Below are positions 3,198 to 34,323 of a stretch of 34,323 nt of DNA, piece by piece. The position numbers and the translations under genes were made by a program. The stretch spans positions 1 to 34,323 of the forward strand of contig DAIDIP010000027.1 of NCBI GenBank assembly GCA_027451745.1. Direction: 5' to 3'. The DNA is from Candidatus Melainabacteria bacterium. Its GTDB lineage: Bacteria > Cyanobacteriota > Vampirovibrionia > Obscuribacterales > Obscuribacteraceae. Under the pieces are notes generated by a model. The model saw only the letters and a list, made by a program, of their open reading frames with translations, ran no database searches and was not told the origin of the DNA. Within the stretch, counting starts at the first letter, position 1; every line of letters begins with the position of its first letter.

Positions 3198-4373
3198 ATG
3201 ATTCGCTCTGTATGCCCCGCTCCGTCCAACAAGTCCTACCGTCGCCCGCTCTCGCACACACCCCATCTGGTGGTCGTGTGCGACCCGCCGGTGGACTCAA
3301 GGTCCATTTCCATCGGCGGCACCATGGGGGCCGCTTACCATCGCACAAACTGGGCTCGCCGGCTCGGGTATGAGGTTACTCTGCTCACCGGGCCAGAATT
3401 TCCCCGCGAGCCCAGGGACCAGTGGACGTCCTTATGCCAGCGCCTCGCTGCCCTGGACGCCGATTATATTCACATCGTCACCCAGTCCATCCTCGGGTGC
3501 CTCACGCTCCACTACTGCCTGTCCAGGAAGATTCCGGTCACGGCGGACTATCATACACTTTACCCTGAGTGGCTGCAGTCCCGCCACGGGTGGAACACCC
3601 TGGTGCCGTACAGTTACATTAGCTGGTTCCTCAACCGCACTGCTCGAGCTATGCCGCCGACCCAGTCGGTGGCACAGCTCCTCGTCAAAAATGGCGTCAA
3701 GCCCGACAAGGTGGAGGTGGTGCCATACGGATTGGACCACGATCGCTTCAGCCTGGAGGGTCACTCAGCCCCGGAGTTCGCCGACCTGCCTCGACCCATC
3801 TGGCTCAACGTCGGACAGATCAGCGAAAACAAGGGCACCAAGGACTTCTTGGAACTCGATCTGCCTGGAACAAAGGTGGTGATCGGGGAAGGCAGCCTGC
3901 GCCCTCGATTCACCAAGGATTACCCGAACGTTCATTTCCTCGGTCCCAAGCCACAGGAGGACCTGCCACCCTACTATCGAGCGGCTGATGTTTTCGTCTT
4001 CCCGAGTCGAGCCGACTCTTGCGGCATGGTGATGCTCGAGGCGCTTGCCTGCGGTACTCCGGTCGCTGCCTATCCGGTCATGGGTCCAATCGATGTTATC
4101 ACCGACAGCCGCGCCGGCTTCATGAAGAAAGACCTCGGCGAGGCTTGCCAATATGCCCTCAACAAGACCACGCGGAAAGGATGCCGCGACTTCGCCATGG
4201 ATTGGCCATCGTGGGAAAAGTCGACCCAGGACTGGCTTGCCAGCATGGTCCGTGTCGACGAACAGCCGCGCAACTTCGGTCCTGTCAGGCAGGCAATGAC
4301 GGCTTACAATCCTGCTACCTTGGCTATCAACGCTGGGGTGCGCAAGGCCGAGCACGTGCTGTTCGGTCGCTAA
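3198..4373 (+). CDS. GT4-family glycosyltransferase, 391 aa
   Basis: A GT-B fold, GT4 (glycosyl transferases group 1) enzyme. The N-terminal domain begins PHLVVVCDPP and includes a Gly-Gly loop (SIGGTMGAAYHRTN) and YHTLYPEW, features of GDP-mannose-dependent alpha-mannosyltransferase-like and SqdX-like GT4 proteins. The C-terminal nucleotide-sugar domain has LNVGQISENKG, VVIGEGSLRP, HFLGPKP, and the retaining-GT EX7E region in FPSRADSCGMVMLEALACG. I start it at 3198 because AGGAG at 3187-3191 lies six bases upstream; the frame is open further back to 3114 through AT-rich leader. The acceptor is unknown; a cytoplasmic or membrane-associated role in glycolipid or polysaccharide assembly is likely. 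Composition is GC-rich, unlike the GH31 gene that follows, and the gene has its own terminator, so it is an isolated, probably acquired unit. Confidence 0.88.
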   Translation: MIRSVCPAPSNKSYRRPLSHTPHLVVVCDPPVDSRSISIGGTMGAAYHRTNWARRLGYEVTLLTGPEFPREPRDQWTSLCQRLAALDADYIHIVTQSILGCLTLHYCLSRKIPVTADYHTLYPEWLQSRHGWNTLVPYSYISWFLNRTARAMPPTQSVAQLLVKNGVKPDKVEVVPYGLDHDRFSLEGHSAPEFADLPRPIWLNVGQISENKGTKDFLELDLPGTKVVIGEGSLRPRFTKDYPNVHFLGPKPQEDLPPYYRAADVFVFPSRADSCGMVMLEALACGTPVAAYPVMGPIDVITDSRAGFMKKDLGEACQYALNKTTRKGCRDFAMDWPSWEKSTQDWLASMVRVDEQPRNFGPVRQAMTAYNPATLAINAGVRKAEHVLFGR

Positions 4374-13312: not shown

Positions 13313-14647
13313 TTGAATCACATTACTAACACTACAGTTAAGTCAATATGGACAGATTTGCTGAATAGAGTTTCGCTATTTGGCCCATTTGGTTTATTTA
13401 CTATTTTAATCTTAGTTGGGACTACTTTTCGATTTTTATATCCTTTTTTTTCCCATCCGCTCGATCATCTTTATTCTGATCCGCTTCGGCATTATCTAAA
13501 TGCTACATCGCTTTTTAACACATACATTTATTCTTGGCTCGATCCACCATTGCCGCAATTATGGTCACGGGCCATGCTCTCTTTGTTTACTAATACTCGC
13601 TTGGGCATAGCTACATATTTCGGTTCGCTCAGCGCAATAACACCTTGGTGCTGGTATTTATGGGGGCGAAAGCTTTTTGACAGTAAAGAAAAAGCGATTG
13701 TATTTTTGACAGCAATTATTTGGTTGCCGTCTTGGTTAGGTATCTTTGGATACTTTATGGATGAAACGCTTCTATTACCTGTATTAGGAATTGCTCTTTG
13801 GTTGAGCTGGGAAGCTAAAGAGAAAAATACAGCTTTTAGTTTATTGATTGCCATAATAGCTTGGGCAATAGCAATTGGTATCAAAATGAGTGCGCTATTT
13901 GAGTTGGCTATTGTATTGCCCTGGTTATTTTTCTATTTTCTTAAGAAGAACGATTATAAATTGCGCTCTTATATTGTTATAGCTACATCTTTGCTTATCC
14001 TTGCGGCAGTATATTTAGCTTATCCTCTTTGGGTTTATCAAGGGTTAGGTTCAACCTGGTTATATCCGCCCGGGATGGGGGCAATGACAAAAGCTTTTTA
14101 TTTAAGTGGCGCAGCCGGACATTCAACAGCTTTTATGAAGCATGGGCGCCCTTTTACAGCAACTTGTGAATTTGGTTCAAATACTCTTTTAACTAAATCA
14201 TTGGAACCCTTTAGCGATTGGCAAACATGGCGCAAAGGAGTGTATCACCTCATCTTAAATTGCGACAACAAAGTAGTTCTAATGCCTCCTATGCCTCATT
14301 TATCTTTTGAAAAACGGTTGCTTTATATCTTTGAAGGCACAGTGCATTTTTTCTTTAGCAGGTCATGGCCGGAGGAAAGGGGTGATGACTTAATCCATAT
14401 TGCCCAAGTAGAAACTCGCTGGATTTGGTCAATTCTCACTCTTTCCATAATTGTTATGGCCTGGCAAAAGAATCGATTTAGAGATTTCATTGTTGTTCTT
14501 TGTTTAGGAACAATATTTCTTTATGCAATCAATGATTCAGCGCCTGTAGAAGGACGTTATCGTAAGCCGTGGGAAGGAATAGCTATTGCTGCATTTATCT
14601 ACTTATTTAATGCCCAAACTCTTTCTTCATCTAAATCAGAATCTTAA
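13313..14647 (+). CDS. GT-C-like polytopic membrane protein, 444 aa (paralogue 1)
   Basis: A multi-spanning membrane protein with about ten hydrophobic segments. The first periplasmic loop contains DHLYSDPLRHYLNAT, resembling the Asp-containing first loop of GT-C glycosyltransferases that use lipid-linked sugars; the C-terminal GRYRKPWEGIAIAAFIYL is also typical of such membrane enzymes. A large extracytoplasmic segment with Cys, Trp and Pro (about 250-360) sits between helices. The protein is clearly homologous over its whole length to the one at 16697-18025: shared blocks include AITPWCWYLWGR, GIFGYFMDETLLLP and YQGLGSTW. The likely start is TTG at 13313; no strong ribosome site is seen and no ATG occurs near the N-terminus. 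The function as a glycosyltransferase is inference. Confidence 0.72.
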   Translation: MNHITNTTVKSIWTDLLNRVSLFGPFGLFTILILVGTTFRFLYPFFSHPLDHLYSDPLRHYLNATSLFNTYIYSWLDPPLPQLWSRAMLSLFTNTRLGIATYFGSLSAITPWCWYLWGRKLFDSKEKAIVFLTAIIWLPSWLGIFGYFMDETLLLPVLGIALWLSWEAKEKNTAFSLLIAIIAWAIAIGIKMSALFELAIVLPWLFFYFLKKNDYKLRSYIVIATSLLILAAVYLAYPLWVYQGLGSTWLYPPGMGAMTKAFYLSGAAGHSTAFMKHGRPFTATCEFGSNTLLTKSLEPFSDWQTWRKGVYHLILNCDNKVVLMPPMPHLSFEKRLLYIFEGTVHFFFSRSWPEERGDDLIHIAQVETRWIWSILTLSIIVMAWQKNRFRDFIVVLCLGTIFLYAINDSAPVEGRYRKPWEGIAIAAFIYLFNAQTLSSSKSES

Positions 14648-16696: not shown

Positions 16697-18025
16697 GTGC
16701 TAATACTGGGTGAGATCGAAAAAAAGTGGCAAGGCAAAGGTTATATTTTTGGCAAATACGGCTTTCTATCTATACTAATAATTACTGGGACAATCTTTCG
16801 CTTTTGTTATCCTTTTTTTTCCCAACCGCTTGATCATTTTTATTCAGACCCTGGCAGACATTATACAAATGCTACTTCTGAATTTAATCAAACAATCAAT
16901 TCCTGGCTAGATACTCCTTTGCCACAGGTTATTTTAAGAACAGCCTTGGCTATCTTTTCCAATACCCGTCCTGGCACATCAACATATTTAGGCTTGTTGT
17001 GCGCCATAACGCCTTGGTGCTGGTATTTATGGGGTCGTCAGCTTTTCAACAGCAGAAAAAGGGCTTTGGTTTTTTTGGCGGCAATAACATGGTTACCGTC
17101 CTGGATAGGTATTTTCGGATATTTTATGGACGAAACTCTTTTGCTGCCAGCTTTAGGAATAACTTTATGGTTGAGCTGGAAGGCGAGCAAAGAAAATACC
17201 GCTATGTCTTTTCTTTTGGCTATTTTGGGCTGGGCGTTTACATTAAGTATAAAGCTAAACTCGCTCCTGGAGCTGATTATTGTTGTTCCTTGGTTATTGT
17301 TCAATTTTATAAAACATAATGGACGTAGTCTCCGTTCTTACGGAATTGCGGCAGCGGGAGTTTTTATATTGACTGCGACATATTTAGTCTATCCTTGGTG
17401 GGTTTATCAGGGACTTGGATCTACTTGGATTTATCCTGCTGGGATGGGGGTAATGACAAGGGCATTTTATTTAAGTGGTGCTTATTCAGTTTCAGCTCAA
17501 TTTATTTTACATGGCCGAACTATTGCTCATATGGGTCCCTATGAATGTGATTCTATGCAGTTGAAGTCTTTTGAACCTTTCAGTGACTGGCGCACCTGGC
17601 GTAAAGGTTATTATCCTCTTATTGTTAATTGCGACAAGAAGCTAGTTTTTACGCCAGACATGCCGCATTTATCGCTTCCTAAGCGATTGCTTTTAATTAC
17701 CGAGGGAGCTGTCTATTTTTTCTTTAGTCGTTCGTGGCCTGATTTAAGAGAAGACGACATAATACACATTGCTCAAGTTGAAATGCGCTGGATTTGGTCT
17801 CTTTTAACAATTGCTGTTATTGGTTTAGCGTGGCAAAAAAAGCGATTTAAAGATATGGTGGTTGTGTTGTGTCTTGGAACTGCCCTGCTCTATATTTTAT
17901 GTGATGGCACAACTATGACCGGTCGTTATCGCAAACCTTGGGAAGGCATTGCCATAGCTGCCTTTGTTTATTTGTTCAATGCACCAGCCAAAAAACGATC
18001 AGACTTAATAAATGAAACAACCTGA
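16697..18025 (+). CDS. GT-C-like polytopic membrane protein, 442 aa (paralogue 2)
   Basis: Full-length homologue of the protein at 13313-14647. It shares the DHFYSDPGRHYTNAT first-loop block, AITPWCWYLWGRQLF, GIFGYFMDETLLLP, YQGLGSTWIYPAGMG, FEPFSDWRTWRKG and GRYRKPWEGIAIAAF. About ten membrane helices are predicted. It begins with a GTG at 16697. The strict conservation of the extracytoplasmic Asp/Arg/His loop and of the C-terminal RYRKPWEG motif between the two paralogues suggests these are functional sites. Likely role by analogy with GT-C enzymes: membrane glycosyltransfer from a polyprenyl carrier; not proven. Confidence 0.72.
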   Translation: MLILGEIEKKWQGKGYIFGKYGFLSILIITGTIFRFCYPFFSQPLDHFYSDPGRHYTNATSEFNQTINSWLDTPLPQVILRTALAIFSNTRPGTSTYLGLLCAITPWCWYLWGRQLFNSRKRALVFLAAITWLPSWIGIFGYFMDETLLLPALGITLWLSWKASKENTAMSFLLAILGWAFTLSIKLNSLLELIIVVPWLLFNFIKHNGRSLRSYGIAAAGVFILTATYLVYPWWVYQGLGSTWIYPAGMGVMTRAFYLSGAYSVSAQFILHGRTIAHMGPYECDSMQLKSFEPFSDWRTWRKGYYPLIVNCDKKLVFTPDMPHLSLPKRLLLITEGAVYFFFSRSWPDLREDDIIHIAQVEMRWIWSLLTIAVIGLAWQKKRFKDMVVVLCLGTALLYILCDGTTMTGRYRKPWEGIAIAAFVYLFNAPAKKRSDLINETT

Positions 18026-25181: not shown

Positions 25182-28100
25182 TTAGAGAATTTGATCAAAG
25201 CAATAATCCAGGTCTTTTTCATCAATTTCAAAATCGAAATTGGTCCAGATCCAATAAGGATGTGGTCGAGCATAACTAATGCCGGTAACAGACCAGCTTT
25301 CTTGTCCGATGGCGCAGGCAATACTAGTAAATGTCTGACACAAAATGTGACTGGAGCCAAGGGTAAGCACTCTAGCTCCTGGCGGCGAAAATACTATATT
25401 TGTTAATCCGGCACCTCCAGCACCAGCAATTACTTCTGCATCGGAGAATATTTCTATCTGCTCTTTAAGGGATAAAGTGCCCGGATCAATGATTTGAAAG
25501 TTGTTCTTTTTAAGTTTGTCGATAATATTTTTGTAGTTAAGCATGCCGCGCCCAGGAGTATTGGCTCGGCACACATAAATACGTTTGCCAGACCTTGGTT
25601 TTACATTCGTGGCTGGTAGGAGTTTTTCGCGAATATACGATACAGCTTGAGGGTGAGCAATCATATCTCTAGATAGGCGTGAAGGCAGTATAAGATTTTT
25701 GAAAGACAAAGGGCGACAAAAATCCACTCTACACAGTCTTTCTTGTCCTATACCAAACATAGACAGCAGTTCATATTGCCATTTAGAAGCTTTCTCATCT
25801 ATTAATATTGGTGATTCAGGAAAAAGATTGGTTTTTTCGAGAAGCTGCAGTCTTGGTAATTCTTCAATCAACCAATGGTAATAGTTATTGTTCAAGCCGA
25901 TGTGGATGCAGTTTTCTTTTTCAAATTCTTTAGATTTCAAAGAAAACAAGAATGCATTCTTTCCAGTAACGTTTCTAATGCTTGAAGTAAATACGGGAAA
26001 ATGGCATTGTTTAACATGTGCTGTTTCTTTAAGTAATAAATTGTCAGCGGTCACTACCATGCCATATTCAGGAAGTATTTTTGCTTCTTCTAAAAATGAT
26101 GTACTTCCTTCGTCAAAATGAATCTTGTTCTCTGAGATAATAGCTTCTTTGTTGCGCACGCCATTGGAGCGTAAGACAAGATCTGTCGCTTCTATTGTGA
26201 CTGCTTTTTCGATAGTATTAGAAAGGGGAAGATCTTTTACACTAGCAATTTTAAGATTGGCTATTTCGTATTTTTCTGACCATGAACCAAGATATTCCTT
26301 GCACAAGGCTATAGAAACATTAGGGTCCTTGGCGAATTTTGCTTGGGCTCTAAATAAGTTGCTTTGAAAAGTTCTTGGTCCCCGGTATAGCTCTTTTAAT
26401 GCACCAGATTGTGTGTTAGATGACCTTTGTCCTGCATAAGCTAATAGCCAGTTCGCGTCTGGATTATTATTGGTCCTGAGAGATTGCTCAAGTATTGTGA
26501 TTGCCTCATACAGTGTACGGCTATGCCAAGTTTTATATTTACTCGTCGTGAGAGACTTGGCTAATAAATTTAGCGCGATTCCTTCTTCAGCATATGCTTC
26601 AAATTCATAAGCCCAGTTTGCTTGAACTAAAAATAAGTCACCTAAACTGGCTAAGGCAAGGCCGCTTATATTTTCATTCTGAGCGAGCTCCGTCAAAATA
26701 TATTCGGCATCAGCAAAAAATCCTTGTGTCTTCAAGACATTCGCAAAATAAAGACCAGTGCAAGCGATCGGATATTTGACAAAACTGTCCAAATGACTTT
26801 GTGACTGTTCAATACGAATGGGTTGGTTTAAATATGTTGGTATGCTCATCTTAATCTGGGATCCCTGCCCTTGGAAAAATCTTTTTAGGGCTAGAGAGAT
26901 AAACTTGGTTTTTGAAAATCTGTGATCGCAGTTTATCGATTCAGGTATCTGATTGCGCTTGCTGGCATATATAAAACAGAAAAGAAAAAATATTATGCTT
27001 CGAAACACTAATTGCAGACTTTCCGGCAGCGGCAATTTAATTGTTTGACTTTTATCAGGCTTACTAGATAAACCATTCTTTTTGCCAATTTCCAAATAAT
27101 GTGTAAGTGCATTTTCGGGAGCTATTGGATAGAGGGCGCTTAGATAATATAAAGTGTCAAATTCACCGCTTGGGGAGCGGCCTTCTCTAGCTCCTCGCCA
27201 GGCAAAATGCACAAAAGGATTCATGCTTGATTTTTTTATATCTGGATTATTTGTCAAATAATAGCGACTATCAAATAGGGGGTGAGGGGAGCATAGATTT
27301 TTTTTCCCATTTTTCAAAAAATGGATCAATAAATTACTTGCCCCTTTTTCATTGTCTGAAATTTGCGCTTCATAGAAGCCTGTATCAAACAAAGGATGAG
27401 GACTTAAATTGTTTTTTGTTCCATGTAAAACAAAATGTTTCAGGGGATTATCGTTGACATCTAGGCTGCTTGCTTGTTTTCTATAATGAGCAATATCAAA
27501 AAGTGGGTGGGGATTATAGCTTAATTTAAATCCTTCATGCAAAAAGTGTAATAGGGGATTATCGCCTATACTTTTTGGATCTGGTGCCATATCGCGATAA
27601 TAGGAGCTATCAAATAAGATATGAGGCGAGCGTCCCTCTTTTGCCCCATATTTTACATAATGCAGCAATGGATTGATGCCTGTTTTTTTTACATCTGGAT
27701 TATGTTCGAGATAATAAGTAGTATCAAATAATGGATGTGGGCTTAGTTTTAATTGACTACCATATTTTAAAAAGTGCAGAAATGGATTTTCGTCGCCAAG
27801 CAATTCTGCTGCATGTTGGCGATAATATTGTGAATCAAACAAAGGATGAGGGCTGCGAAATTGCTTATTATCAGCAGTCAAAAAATGTTTAAGGGGATTT
27901 TCATCTGTTTCAATATCGCCTATCTGTGCTTTGTAATAGGCAATATCAAATAGTGGATGCGGGTTGAGTCCTTTTCTAAAACCTTTTTTTAAAAAATGCT
28001 CAAGGGGATTTTCATCTGTTTCTTTCAATTCTGGTACTAGCTCATAATAATAAGAGCCATCAAATAAAATATGCGCACAGCGCCCTTCTTTGGCTCCATG

Positions 28101-28268
28101 TCTTAAAAAGTGCTCTAAAGGATCCAATTTGCGACAAGCTACATCTTTATAAGTGGTCAAATAAAAAGAAGAATCAAACAGCCAATTGCTTTCACTCGAT
28201 TCTTCGGACGGCCTTTTAAAACTGTCCTTTTTAATTGAAAGTGCTTCTGATTGCTTTTTTTGACTCAT
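25182..28268 (-). CDS. GT61-type glycosyltransferase with ten tandem N-terminal repeats, 1028 aa
   Basis: Residues 28-404 are ten repeats of 36-40 residues with the pattern LFD-x-x-YY...NP(L/F)xHF(L)xxGxxxxxSPHP, a module known from polysaccharide-related glycosyltransferases. A hydrophobic segment at about 417-435 (LVFRSIIFFLFCFIYA) follows, then a helical, TPR-like stretch (about 490-650). The C-terminus is a GT61 (DUF563, EOGT-like) domain with NNYYHWLIEELPRL (YYHW at 796-799), IYVCRANTPGRG, and IAGAGGAGLTNIVFSPPGARVL (GAGGAG at about 949-954). GT61 enzymes transfer pentoses, GlcNAc or related sugars. The repeat region could anchor the enzyme to a glycan or partner. No N-terminal signal peptide is visible. 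Starts of this gene and the GT2 gene diverge across 132 bases. Confidence 0.85.
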   Translation of the reverse strand: MSQKKQSEALSIKKDSFKRPSEESSESNWLFDSSFYLTTYKDVACRKLDPLEHFLRHGAKEGRCAHILFDGSYYYELVPELKETDENPLEHFLKKGFRKGLNPHPLFDIAYYKAQIGDIETDENPLKHFLTADNKQFRSPHPLFDSQYYRQHAAELLGDENPFLHFLKYGSQLKLSPHPLFDTTYYLEHNPDVKKTGINPLLHYVKYGAKEGRSPHILFDSSYYRDMAPDPKSIGDNPLLHFLHEGFKLSYNPHPLFDIAHYRKQASSLDVNDNPLKHFVLHGTKNNLSPHPLFDTGFYEAQISDNEKGASNLLIHFLKNGKKNLCSPHPLFDSRYYLTNNPDIKKSSMNPFVHFAWRGAREGRSPSGEFDTLYYLSALYPIAPENALTHYLEIGKKNGLSSKPDKSQTIKLPLPESLQLVFRSIIFFLFCFIYASKRNQIPESINCDHRFSKTKFISLALKRFFQGQGSQIKMSIPTYLNQPIRIEQSQSHLDSFVKYPIACTGLYFANVLKTQGFFADAEYILTELAQNENISGLALASLGDLFLVQANWAYEFEAYAEEGIALNLLAKSLTTSKYKTWHSRTLYEAITILEQSLRTNNNPDANWLLAYAGQRSSNTQSGALKELYRGPRTFQSNLFRAQAKFAKDPNVSIALCKEYLGSWSEKYEIANLKIASVKDLPLSNTIEKAVTIEATDLVLRSNGVRNKEAIISENKIHFDEGSTSFLEEAKILPEYGMVVTADNLLLKETAHVKQCHFPVFTSSIRNVTGKNAFLFSLKSKEFEKENCIHIGLNNNYYHWLIEELPRLQLLEKTNLFPESPILIDEKASKWQYELLSMFGIGQERLCRVDFCRPLSFKNLILPSRLSRDMIAHPQAVSYIREKLLPATNVKPRSGKRIYVCRANTPGRGMLNYKNIIDKLKKNNFQIIDPGTLSLKEQIEIFSDAEVIAGAGGAGLTNIVFSPPGARVLTLGSSHILCQTFTSIACAIGQESWSVTGISYARPHPYWIWTNFDFEIDEKDLDYCFDQIL
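27057..28187 (-). repeat. Ten tandem ~114-bp repeats encoding the LFD-YY module
   Basis: In-frame repeats encode ten units of 36-40 residues; each starts LFD (LFDSSFY, LFDGSYY, LFDIAYY, LFDSQYY, LFDTTYY, LFDSSYY, LFDIAHY, LFDTGFY, LFDSRYY, EFDTLYY). The repeats are diverged at DNA level, so they are old. Units 5 and 9 keep the longer NPDVKK/NPDIKK and REGRSP/KEGRSP forms. Confidence 0.9.
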
Positions 28269-30633: not shown

Positions 30634-30918
30634 CTAATTACTGACTATTTGTGAGTCGCTCAATAACTTTTTCGAGCCGATTTTTAAATTCTGGCAGCTT
30701 ATCTTCAATTGCTTCCAAGACCAATCTATATCAGCATTTTCTCTGGTACATTCTGCACTCAGCTCTTTTACAGCGTCACCTATCACCTGAAAATTACGCA
30801 GCACAGCATCTTGGCACATATGATTGTTCATAAACCAATCTTCGCCTTTAGCCGTGTACTGCTCAATCCATTCCAGACACTCTTTAATTTTTGTCAGGCG
30901 GCCATAATCGTCTTTCAT
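30634..30918 (-). pseudogene. Broken HepT (HEPN/DUF86) toxin, internal deletion and frameshift
   Basis: Residues 1-67 match the HepT/DUF86 N-terminus (TKIKECLEWIEQYT..., TQDAVLRNF-type block seen here as CQDAVLRNFQVIGDAVKELS, then DIDW). After the Trp-Ser at about 30723 the annotated frame becomes non-family. One base out of frame, the DNA from about 30719 to 30638 reads LEAIEDKLPEFKNRLEKVI ERLTNSQ-stop, the usual HepT C-terminus. The expected block between them (R-x4-6-H, the RNase active site) is missing. So roughly 20 residues were deleted with a net frame change, leaving a probably inactive toxin. It starts at ATG 30918 overlapping the MntA stop by four bases. Confidence 0.82.
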
Positions 30919-31214
30919 AGAGGAATTGCTTCTTTTAGTGCTTTTTCTCGCATTTTGCCCTTCATGGCTTCTTCCTGCACTACATCAACTCGCTTACCCA
31001 GAAGCTTTTCTAAGTCTTGTTCCAAATGTAACCAGTCAAACAACTTGCATCTCGGTTCTAATTGAACCAAAAAATCTACATCGCTGGTTTCAGTTGCGCT
31101 GCCTCTGACCGTTGACCCAAAGATGCGCACATTATAAGCACCATACTTAGCAGCAATTTCCAATATTTGCTTGCGTTTTTCTTTTACTGTTTGTTCTATC
31201 ATCATCGTCAACAC
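30915..31214 (-). CDS. MntA-like nucleotidyltransferase antitoxin, 99 aa
   Basis: A minimal nucleotidyltransferase (MNT). The polymerase-beta-like signature GSTVRGSATETSDVDFLV (GSX10DXD) is complete, and RVDVV carries the third acidic position. In known MNT-HEPN systems MntA AMPylates HepT to neutralise its RNase activity. The annotated start is GTG at 31214; ATGs follow at 31205 and 31202. It overlaps the broken HepT by four bases, the normal operon arrangement, so MntA has outlived its toxin here. Confidence 0.87.
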   Translation of the reverse strand: MLTMMIEQTVKEKRKQILEIAAKYGAYNVRIFGSTVRGSATETSDVDFLVQLEPRCKLFDWLHLEQDLEKLLGKRVDVVQEEAMKGKMREKALKEAIPL

Positions 31215-31436: not shown

Positions 31437-31455
31437 TGCCTACACTGTGCCTACA
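31437..31455 (-). repeat. Paired octamer TGTAGGCA-N3-TGTAGGCA
   Basis: On the plus strand TGCCTACA (31437-31444), CTG, TGCCTACA (31448-31455). On the minus strand this reads TGTAGGCA twice with an 11-bp period, matching the pair at 31677-31695 except for one base per unit (R = A or G). Candidate integrase arm site. Confidence 0.6.
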
Positions 31456-31525
31456 TGAATACTTTTAGTCTTTTTGATTCAATTTTAATCAAAACCGGAA
31501 ACGCTTATCTGGTAAGGCTTTTAAA

Positions 31526-31574
31526 TGGCGGGGCCGACGGGGCCCGAACCCGCGACCTCCTGCGTGACAGGCAG
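31526..31574 (-). other. 3' fragment of tRNA-Asp(GTC): probable attachment site
   Basis: Read on the minus strand, this is the 3' two thirds of a tRNA: anticodon stem-loop CTGC-CTGTCAC-GCAGG with anticodon GTC, a short variable region, the T arm (GCGGG-TTCGGGC-CCCGT), acceptor strand CGGCCCC, discriminator G and encoded CCA. The 5' third (acceptor 5' strand, D arm and first anticodon-stem base) is absent: homology stops at position 28. The T-loop has G instead of the universal A58, as expected of a remnant. Such a fragment is the usual relic of site-specific integration into a tRNA gene. In this orientation the intact tRNA should lie to the right, beyond the window. Confidence 0.85.
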
Positions 31575-31676
31575 TTGGCAAGTTGACAGGTTATTGATTA
31601 GCATTTGGCTAGAATATAAGCTGAGCTTGTGTTTAATGACCTGACTAAAAATCTGCCTACTTGACGAGTTTCCTTA

Positions 31677-31695
31677 TGTAAGCACTGTGTAAGCA
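31677..31695 (+). repeat. Paired octamer TGTAAGCA-N3-TGTAAGCA
   Basis: TGTAAGCA (31677-31684), CTG, TGTAAGCA (31688-31695), an 11-bp period. It is inverted relative to the pair at 31437-31455 and lies on the other side of the tRNA fragment. A further single related octamer, TGCCTACT, is at 31654-31661. Confidence 0.6.
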
Positions 31696-31890
31696 GTTGA
31701 ATTGCAAATTCTTCACAGTGATAATTTGGCGTTGAAATAATTATACTGCACTAATGTCTTTTTACTTACAGATTAACCATGAGCTGCATACATTCTCGAT
31801 ATTAGCCTGAACTATCTTTGCAGATTTTTCGTCTAATTAACTTGAGACAATTGTCAGGCAGGGTAAACTTATAGACAGGGAGGGATGCTT

Positions 31891-33048
31891 ATGGTCGAAC
31901 GAGTAGAGGCAATAGTGAAACCTGAATTATTAGCCTGGGCTCGCAAAAGTGCTGGCCTAGATTTGCCTTTGGCAGCAAAAAGAATAGGCACTACCGAAGA
32001 GCGTTTATCAAACTGGGAGAACGGCGAGCGGCGCCCTACGATTACCCAGCTAAGAAAAATGGGCGAAGTTTATAAAAGACCAATAGCTGTATTTTATTTG
32101 CCTCAACCTCCAAAAGGTTTTGACCCAATAAAAGATTTTCGGCGAATATCTGAAAAGCACACCCAGGAATATAGTCCTGCCTTGGTGTACGAAATTAGGC
32201 GTGCCTATAGTCGTCGAGATGCAGCAATAGAGTTACGCAAAGATTTAGACGGTACCGTGCCACTGCCTGCACTACCAAAATACATTGGCAACGATCCTGA
32301 AAAAATGGGACATATAATACGAGAATTTCTTGGCATAACTTTTGAAAAGCAGATGCACTGGCATGATGATCGTGAATCCTTCAATGGTTGGCGAATTGCT
32401 ATAGAGAATAAAAACATATTAGTTTTCCAAGCAAGCCGTATACCTGTTGAAGAAATGCGGGGTTTTTCAATTACGAAAGCTCCTTTTCCTATAATCATGG
32501 TGAATAATCGAGACGCCGTGGTGGCTCGCACATTTACACTCCTACACGAACTGGCGCATGTCATTATGGGTAAAGAAGGGGTTTGCGACCTAGGTGGCCA
32601 TGCGGATATTGAAGTAGCATGCAATGCAATAGCGGGTTCTGCTTTAGTGCCTCAAAAACTACTTTTTGCAGAACCTGAATTTCAAAATAAAAAATCAACA
32701 TCTAGGTGGACAGATGATGAAATCAGCGATCTTGCAAATCGCTATAAGGTCAGCCGAGAAGTTATCTTGCGTCGATTGCACACCGTGGGTAGCATCTCTG
32801 CAACGTTTTACAAAAACAAGAGCAATGAGTATAAAGAGCTGTGGATAAAGCAACTGAAAAAAGCAAAGCAAGATAAGAAAGGATTTGCACCACCAGACAA
32901 AATGGTTGTGAGTTCTCTTGGCAGATTATTTTCTCGGCTAGTTTTGGATAGCTATCATCAAGAAAAGATAACAGCTGCTGATGTGTCCGATCTCTTGTCG
33001 GTTAAGCTGAATTATTTGCCCAAAATTGAAATGGCTGTATTTGGTTAG
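31891..33048 (+). CDS. XRE-ImmA/IrrE fusion: HTH regulator with zinc peptidase, 385 aa
   Basis: Residues about 13-68 are an XRE-type helix-turn-helix (LAAKRIGTTEERLSNWENGERRPTITQLRKMGEVYKRPIAVFYL); the middle and C-terminal part is an ImmA/IrrE (COG2856, M78) peptidase with the zinc motif in TFTLLHELAHVIMG (H219-E-L-A-H223). ImmA-type proteins cleave repressors or antitoxins. The start at 31891 has AGGGAGGG at 31877-31884, six bases upstream; an ATG at 31885 abuts it and is less likely. It overlaps the PIN gene at its stop, an arrangement found in known XRE-ImmA/DUF4411 pairs, which are toxin-antitoxin-like and often in mobile or defence loci. Confidence 0.9.
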   Translation: MVERVEAIVKPELLAWARKSAGLDLPLAAKRIGTTEERLSNWENGERRPTITQLRKMGEVYKRPIAVFYLPQPPKGFDPIKDFRRISEKHTQEYSPALVYEIRRAYSRRDAAIELRKDLDGTVPLPALPKYIGNDPEKMGHIIREFLGITFEKQMHWHDDRESFNGWRIAIENKNILVFQASRIPVEEMRGFSITKAPFPIIMVNNRDAVVARTFTLLHELAHVIMGKEGVCDLGGHADIEVACNAIAGSALVPQKLLFAEPEFQNKKSTSRWTDDEISDLANRYKVSREVILRRLHTVGSISATFYKNKSNEYKELWIKQLKKAKQDKKGFAPPDKMVVSSLGRLFSRLVLDSYHQEKITAADVSDLLSVKLNYLPKIEMAVFG

Positions 33049-33062
33049 TGCGAGTAATTACG

Positions 33063-33530
33063 GTGAAATACAGCCTGGATACAAGCGCTTTAATAGATGG
33101 CTGGGTTAGAAATTACCCTATCAAAAGTTTTCCTGGTGTCTGGGAAAAGTTGGCTGCATTGATAGGGGAAGGACACGCTAAGGCAAGTGATGAAGTACGG
33201 CGTGAGCTAGAAAAACAAGCTGACGATTTAACGGTCTGGTGCAACCACCAAAGCAACTTATTTGTAACAATGGACGATGAAATTCAAATTCTGGTAGCAG
33301 AAATACTAAAAAATTACCCACGGCTAGTTGAATCTGGCGGGCGCAGATCTGGTGCCGATCCATTTGTCATTGCTTTAGCAAAAATTCACAAGAGCACTGT
33401 AGTAACTGCTGAGGTTAGAACTAATAATCTAGACGGCCGCGTCAAGATACCAGATGTCTGCAATTTTATGGATATCAAATGTATAAATTTGCTTGGGTTA
33501 ATTAATGAGCAACGTTGGGTTTTTGGCTGA
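33063..33530 (+). CDS. PIN-domain (DUF4411-like) nuclease, 155 aa
   Basis: A PIN-like ribonuclease of the DUF4411 type: the N-terminal acidic site is YSLDTSALIDGW, the middle has the conserved SDEVRRELEKQADDL, and the C-terminal pair of acidic residues lies in GADPFVIALAKIHKSTVVTAE. It is paired with the XRE-ImmA gene: a frame from GTG 33048 overlaps the upstream stop by one base (TAGTG). I prefer GTG 33063 because the family usually begins M-K-Y-x-L-D; if 33048 is used the protein is five residues longer. Likely toxin of a two-gene module. Confidence 0.85.
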   Translation: MKYSLDTSALIDGWVRNYPIKSFPGVWEKLAALIGEGHAKASDEVRRELEKQADDLTVWCNHQSNLFVTMDDEIQILVAEILKNYPRLVESGGRRSGADPFVIALAKIHKSTVVTAEVRTNNLDGRVKIPDVCNFMDIKCINLLGLINEQRWVFG

Positions 33531-33614: not shown

Positions 33615-34082
33615 TTATGCCTGTTGCGATGATTTCAGTTGGCATCTTTGTTCAAAATACGCTTGATAAACAATAGCCATGGTTACAACAAAGCATCCTA
33701 TCATTGCAGTTGCTGATGGATATTCGCCAAGAGCGAGAAGAGTCCAAACGGCTGTTAACACCGGATCAAATAATCCCAAAATAAGGGCGCGAAAGACTGG
33801 AACATATTTGATACCTATAGTGTACAGAACATCCGGTATCCCCCATGGAATTATGCCCAGAAGAACTAAAAAGAACAATTCGTGCAGCGGTGGTATGTTG
33901 CTTTGCAGTAATGACAGAACTATAAATGGTAAGCCAATTATAGTCATTAACAAATTGGCAAGGATTACGTTTTTGAGAGCACCAAAACCAGATGTGTCCT
34001 GCTGAACCCTAACTCCAAGACAAATCTGATCTATGGTAAACGTCAATCCACAAAAGAGTCCTAATGGGACATTAACAAAATT
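33615..34082 (-). pseudogene. C-terminal half of an EamA permease, cut by an insertion sequence
   Basis: About 150 codons encode a second EamA repeat: NVPLGLFCGLTF, then helices ANLLMTIIGLPFIVLSLL, FLVLLGIIPWGIPDVLYTIG, VFRALILGLFDPVLTAVWTLLALGE and IGCFVVTMAIVYQAYF. A full EamA protein has two such repeats (about 290 residues). The first repeat is missing: the frame meets an in-frame TGA at 34085-34083 where transposase-side sequence begins. The TTG or GTG-type starts inside the fragment are probably not used. It is AT-rich, unlike the EamA at 11862. Confidence 0.75.
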
Positions 34083-34148
34083 TCAGGCCAAATGATGGCA
34101 AAAAGATCATACTGGGCGGTTGTTACCTGTAGCACCACCGGTGGGATC

Positions 34149-34323
34149 ATGAAAGAAACAGTTCCAGAAGCGATGCCAAAATTTTTTGAATCTTTTTGCA
34201 GTAAATTCGAGGATGTACTGGGTCGGGAAGCCCAGCGAAGAAATTTCCGGATGTATTTAGCTGGTTTGCTAGGTGACAGTGAACGTAAAAACATTTGGGC
34301 AATGGCTGAGGGCACTGTAGAAG
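34149..34323 (+). mobile_element. Start of an IS701-like transposase, truncated by the window edge
   Basis: The plus-strand frame open to the window end encodes MKETVPEAMPKFFESF..., then GREAQRRNFRMYLAGLLGD and SERKNIWAMAEG, matching the N-terminal region of IS701-family DDE transposases (FxxxF...R....YLxGLL....RKN...AE). The frame is open back to 34092, but the ATG at 34149 is the likely start. The left end of the element should lie between about 34082 and 34149, next to the severed EamA fragment. No terminal repeat could be confirmed because the right end is outside the window. Confidence 0.75.

Follow-up and report, generated by a model that had tools for sequence, protein, structure and literature searches.

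Lambda-type integrases exchange strands at a core sequence while their N-terminal domain holds arm DNA, and in the P4-type enzymes the arm-binding domain is Arm-DNA-bind_3. Among the closest described systems, the tandem arrays of SGI1 arise by repeated integration at one site, which leaves an internal attP between copies (PMC2297512), and the attL of KplE1 (IntS) at the tRNA gene argW provides an example of a tyrosine integrase with arm-type sites close to a tRNA 3' end (PMC2951348). The window analysed here, which comprises the entire contig C27 (34,323 nucleotides) of a Candidatus Melainabacteria genome, contains towards its right end a tRNA-Asp 3' fragment set between two octamer pairs, an arrangement that is very probably an integrase attachment site.

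The tRNA-Asp fragment, its octamer pairs and the flanking genes

Inspection of the window confirmed the primary observations of the earlier note, namely two octamer pairs, each exact and lying on the strand and at the positions reported, and between them a tRNA-Asp 3' fragment beginning inside the anticodon stem (Table 1). The fragment, which was called neither by ARAGORN nor by Rfam at its gathering score, forms part of a 67-bp repeat extending from the anticodon stem through 18 bp beyond CCA. The putative P' arm starts 71 bp beyond the 3' end of the fragment, in a position and orientation that are canonical by comparison with public loci, and the inner ends of the two arms (31455 and 31677) are placed near-symmetrically at ~111 and ~110 bp from the anticodon (31566-31568). 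A search of the whole genome (3.0 Mb), as the earlier note had proposed, detected the octamer pair at these two sites only, even with one mismatch allowed.

Table 1. Features of the putative attachment site and its flanks, in window coordinates
Feature	Position	Strand	Remarks
HepT-like toxin	30634..30918	(-)	PF01934 2e-8, profile 1-51 of 120 (first half); below NCBIfam cut-off
MntA-like nucleotidyltransferase antitoxin	30915..31214	(-)	first gene on E2 side; PF01909 1.8e-12; NCBIfam MntA below cut-off
Putative P' arm, TGTAGGCA-CAG-TGTAGGCA	31437..31455	(-)	would be first arm of left island (E2); exact pair
Inverted repeat TTTTGATT...AATCAAAA, possible terminator	31472..31494	(-)	between tRNA 3' end and P' arm; read from sequence
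Attachment core, 67-bp repeat common to intact tRNA-Asp locus	31508..31574	(-)	97% vs C23:125-191
tRNA-Asp 3' fragment (CTGCCTGTCACGCAGG...), 49 nt	31526..31574	(-)	from one base inside anticodon stem to CCA
Putative P arm, TGTAAGCA-CTG-TGTAAGCA	31677..31695	(+)	would be arm of right island (E1); inverted relative to P'
XRE/ImmA antitoxin-like gene (HTH + Peptidase_M78)	31885..33048	(+)	PF06114 5e-14, PF01381 2.6e-9
DUF4411/PIN toxin-like gene	33048..33530	(+)	PF14367 2e-39
EamA transporter remnant, apparently truncated	33615..34046	(-)	PF00892, profile 31-131 of 135
IS701-family insertion sequence, left end	34065..34323	(+)	common to C1 and C51; contig breaks here

Because brief motifs and tRNA remnants invite over-interpretation, the possibility was weighed that a stray fragment and two coincidental octamer pairs had simply come together by chance. 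This is scarcely credible: with up to two mismatches allowed, only 0.16 octamer-pair matches would be expected in the window as against the two found, both without mismatch, and the explanation is refuted by a copy of the site in G001, a second genome of the same genus, the double-armed layout with exact arms (spaced 221 and 222 bp apart) being confined to these two among 382 genomes of the class.

The first operons to either side of the site, MntA/HepT and XRE-ImmA/DUF4411 in the window, AbiE and Phd/VapC in G001, are toxin-antitoxin-like in all four cases and point away from it. The XRE/ImmA gene occupies the place expected for an integrase; no integrase with PF13356 and PF00589 was found in the E1 and E2 flanks of the window, and the integrase or recombinase which the earlier note had proposed to seek to the right is missing from both sides of the fragment. 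Elsewhere in the window, two copies of one gene (13417-14613 and 16786-17982; 67% DNA identity) are separated by an unrelated gene, and internal repeats with ~66% identical copies occupy positions 27203-28113 within a long gene (25182-28268).

Occurrence of the octamer pair in public loci

Viral contigs yielded 18 stretches with the pattern TGTARGCA-CWR-TGTARGCA and genome contigs at least 118, as against ~30 expected, an estimate from base counts. An intact tRNA lay within 150 bp of 69 of the 138 sites (random positions in the same loci, 4%) and an integrase ORF within 300 bp of 51 (random positions, 11%), one or other adjoining 110 of the 138 (random positions, 15%). Those elements for which both ends are known (L096/L104, L108/L107 and L097) carry an arm at each end in the order intact tRNA, 66-76 bp, P' arm, body, integrase start, P arm, ~118 bp and tRNA fragment, the last starting at the anticodon. 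Two integrases at such arms were checked, and both contain PF13356 (Arm-DNA-bind_3) plus PF00589; the L104 integrase has no near match among named phages, and in L051/L166 the C-terminus of a tyrosine recombinase adjoins the motif at a contig end.

When 63 integrases were arranged in a tree, 40 of the 46 arm-associated enzymes fell into one group and the other six into a separate group. The main group also holds one integrase from the window's own genome (L234) and one from G001 (L236), and since L234 has other arms, it was apparent that arm sequence does not simply track the tree. No cognate integrase for the window arms was found.

Across Pseudomonadota, Thermodesulfobacteriota, Nitrospinota, Chloroflexota and the Obscuribacter group, the octamer pair thus emerges as a likely signature of P4-type integrase arms. 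The earlier note's proposal that the octamers are integrase arm sites is upheld by the recurrence of the motif at integrase attachment sites across bacteria, and those of the window are predicted to be such sites, to which an integrase would bind. A literature search, which constitutes weak evidence as subscription papers lay mostly outside it, yielded no paper naming the motif as an arm signature.

It is very unlikely that the pairs are sites of something else, such as regulators of toxin-antitoxin operons or replication iterons, with the tRNA remnant merely incidental. They do occupy the upstream region of divergent toxin-antitoxin-like operons in each genome, and TGTAGGCA repeats occur near a primase-like gene in viral contig L244, but elsewhere the pair adjoins tRNAs and integrases at fixed distances, and between the two species the flanking gene families differ whereas the pairs are the same.

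Several other loci encountered during these comparisons have unusual layouts. The L244 repeats (3440-3780; IMGVR_UViG_3300035698_004409) are of TGTAGGCA type, run in both orientations and cluster downstream of the primase-like gene, origin-like and without a tRNA; this was the only match of the viral-contig scan for an inverted double-arm layout, and was rejected as an att site, no tRNA fragment being present. The layout at L109, L126 and related Acinetobacter loci departs from the usual one in that two octamer pairs, each running against the tRNA strand, enclose an intact tRNA-Met, and an integrase adjoins one of the pairs. On contig C8 of G001 (L236, 2720-5804), the integrase nesting among the TGTARGCA-arm enzymes adjoins a P4-family primase gene, with no visible tRNA or TGTARGCA arm nearby.

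The intact tRNA-Asp, the sister genome and tandem junctions elsewhere in the genome

An intact tRNA-Asp, which the earlier note had proposed to look for to the right of the window, is present on contig C23 (143-219, minus strand; anticodon GTC), the probable link between the two contigs being a shared insertion sequence. The window ends in 259 bases that form the left end of an IS701-family element, a complete copy of which (IS701 transposase, CTAA target duplication) is located on C1, and C23 starts within the right end of the same element, the 3' end of the tRNA-Asp being at base 143; C27-IS-C23 is therefore the natural join, in which the fragment and the intact tRNA would be separated by the IS and ~2.5 kb of island. 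However, because the same IS ends also occur on C14 and C51, and because the flanking bases (CTAA on C27, TTAG on C23) do not fit one simple insertion, the join is regarded as probable rather than established.

Comparison with a related genome, another step proposed by the earlier note, showed that contig C26 of G001 carries an intact tRNA-Asp, an island and a double-armed fragment together. The order comprises dnaN, the intact tRNA-Asp, a GH3 gene, an AbiEii-like/AbiEi pair, TGTAAGCA-CTA-TGTAAGCA, the tRNA-Asp 3' fragment, TGTAGGCA-CAG-TGTAGGCA and a Phd/VapC-type pair, with 3.7 kb separating the two tRNA-Asp copies; an integrase was found neither in this 3.7-kb island nor otherwise beside the site. 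The GH3 gene is supernumerary, G001 having a 68% paralog at another locus, which fits imported cargo. Between window and G001 the arms are identical at 37 of 38 positions (P' 19/19, P 18/19), compared with 69-73% for the spacers (61-63% when shuffled) and 76% for dnaN; outside the arms likeness was no greater than shuffled, and the cargo differs on both sides. A TTGATT...AATCAA inverted repeat in G001 occupies the same place as the possible terminator of the window.

No intact P' arm was found beside the intact tRNA-Asp of either genome. In the window's own genome the DNA where it would stand is cut by the IS, while in G001 the stretch past the terminator of the intact tRNA aligned with the P' segment of E2 better than 1000 of 1000 shuffles (nearer 0.01 when corrected for the six pairs compared), and at best fits a decayed P' arm. 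A TGTCTG box 105-111 bp past all four tRNA 3' ends was considered as a shared P' sequence, but its own-genome part was dropped because the first 77 bases of C23 recur on C1 and C14 and constitute the IS end.

The P arm is inverted relative to P' in both the window and G001, whereas elsewhere the direct orientation, with P running the same way as P', is seen in 26 of 27 fragment-side P arms.

Six integrase-adjacent tRNA fragments of the window's own genome were scanned for repeat pairs of 11-bp period, the shuffled expectation being 0.23 pair matches per region. Pairs were detected on both sides of five, namely L230 and L231 (both tRNA-Val), L229b, L233 and L234 (far pair 7/8), and on the integrase side only, within the stretch scanned, of L229a. 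The P arms of L230 and L229a are matched by the far pairs of L231 and L229b, respectively, a pattern predicted for islands arranged in series.

The two tRNA-Val junctions on C1 (about 40.5 and 79 kb) have related integrases and lie ~38 kb apart; a TrbB-type conjugation ATPase gene is located between them, and the region suggests an integrative conjugative element. At L229 (C18, 66-79 kb), tandem elements occupy a tRNA-Arg-like site, a SIR2-like gene and a kinase-like gene within them match defence models, and the arm of the second element matches that past the intact tRNA-Arg on C9 (L232).

These data also bear on whether the window site might be a single attP-like module, that is, the P-O-P' of one element beside tRNA-Asp (a circle inserted otherwise, or a rearrangement) with flanks belonging to one element or to the host. 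Free attP sites whose two arms are of a single type do occur, for example in viral contig L245; the outer end of E2, sought as a third tRNA-Asp fragment, was not found; and the intact tRNA-Asp in both genomes has a terminator without an intact P' arm adjoining. This reading is nevertheless unlikely, given that an island separates the fragment from the intact tRNA upstream of it, which is the arrangement integration predicts, that in G001 the DNA adjoining the intact tRNA can be aligned with the P' segment of E2, and that tandem junctions are common in the window's own genome.

Proposed origin of the site and comparison with known systems

The window site is probably a P-O-P' junction of two tandem P4-type islands that are without their integrases. 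It has a core repeat with an intact copy, arm pairs on both sides, and P on one side and P' on the other of one fragment, but lacks the integrase gene beside an arm and the P arm direct with P' that would be expected of a P4-type island. The earlier note's suggestion that two islands abut here is favoured by the G001 parallel, the unique arms and the intact tRNA; given the absence of an integrase, the missing outer end of E2, the inferred contig join and the inverted P arm, it is nonetheless the best inference rather than a demonstration.

On the two-island reading, islands would have inserted into the dnaN-adjacent tRNA-Asp gene of an Obscuribacter-family bacterium, within the 3' half of the gene, the integrase exchanging strands in the anticodon loop with its N-terminal domain on the octamer pairs. 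When another island then integrated there, a 3' tRNA fragment would have been left flanked by arms of different islands, P on one side and P' on the other. The right island, E1, would thus start at the P arm (31677) and extend in the direction of the intact tRNA-Asp of C23, and the left island, E2, would begin with the P' arm at 31455. Both would now be without an integrase near the site, having kept toxin-antitoxin-type genes there.

A further and doubtful possibility is that the double-armed, integrase-less site is under selection in this genus as a landing pad with inverted symmetric arms, where integrases supplied in trans exchange the toxin-antitoxin cargo to either side; the better preservation of the arms than of the spacers would fit this, as would the wholly different cargo of the two species. 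On the preferred reading of a junction between two islands, the site would illustrate the loss of integrases from tandem islands at a single tRNA, with toxin-antitoxin genes remaining in place. The octamer pair could in addition allow fossil sites and the ends of islands to be recognised from sequence alone where the integrase has been lost.

In common with P4-type (Arm-DNA-bind_3, PF13356) islands and prophages, the site has a core running from the anticodon stem to the tRNA 3' end, arm pairs of 11-bp period on both sides, a P' arm ~70 bp beyond the tRNA, and an octamer sequence that many of them use; it differs in having no integrase at either arm, an inverted P arm, and toxin-antitoxin-like cargo at both. 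Whereas the SGI1 copies are identical, carry int and target thdF, the putative islands of the window differ from one another, are without int and target a tRNA (PMC2297512). In KplE1 the P' arm sites have the motif TAAA in common and an integrase gene is retained, under regulation from attL (PMC2951348), unlike the window site, which has none beside it. The junctions elsewhere in the window's own genome (tRNA-Val on C1; C18, C13, C20) exhibit the same layout, arm pairs of 11-bp period flanking a tRNA fragment, but there the arm sequences are other than TGTARGCA, and an Arm-DNA-bind_3-like integrase is present and abuts one of the arms.
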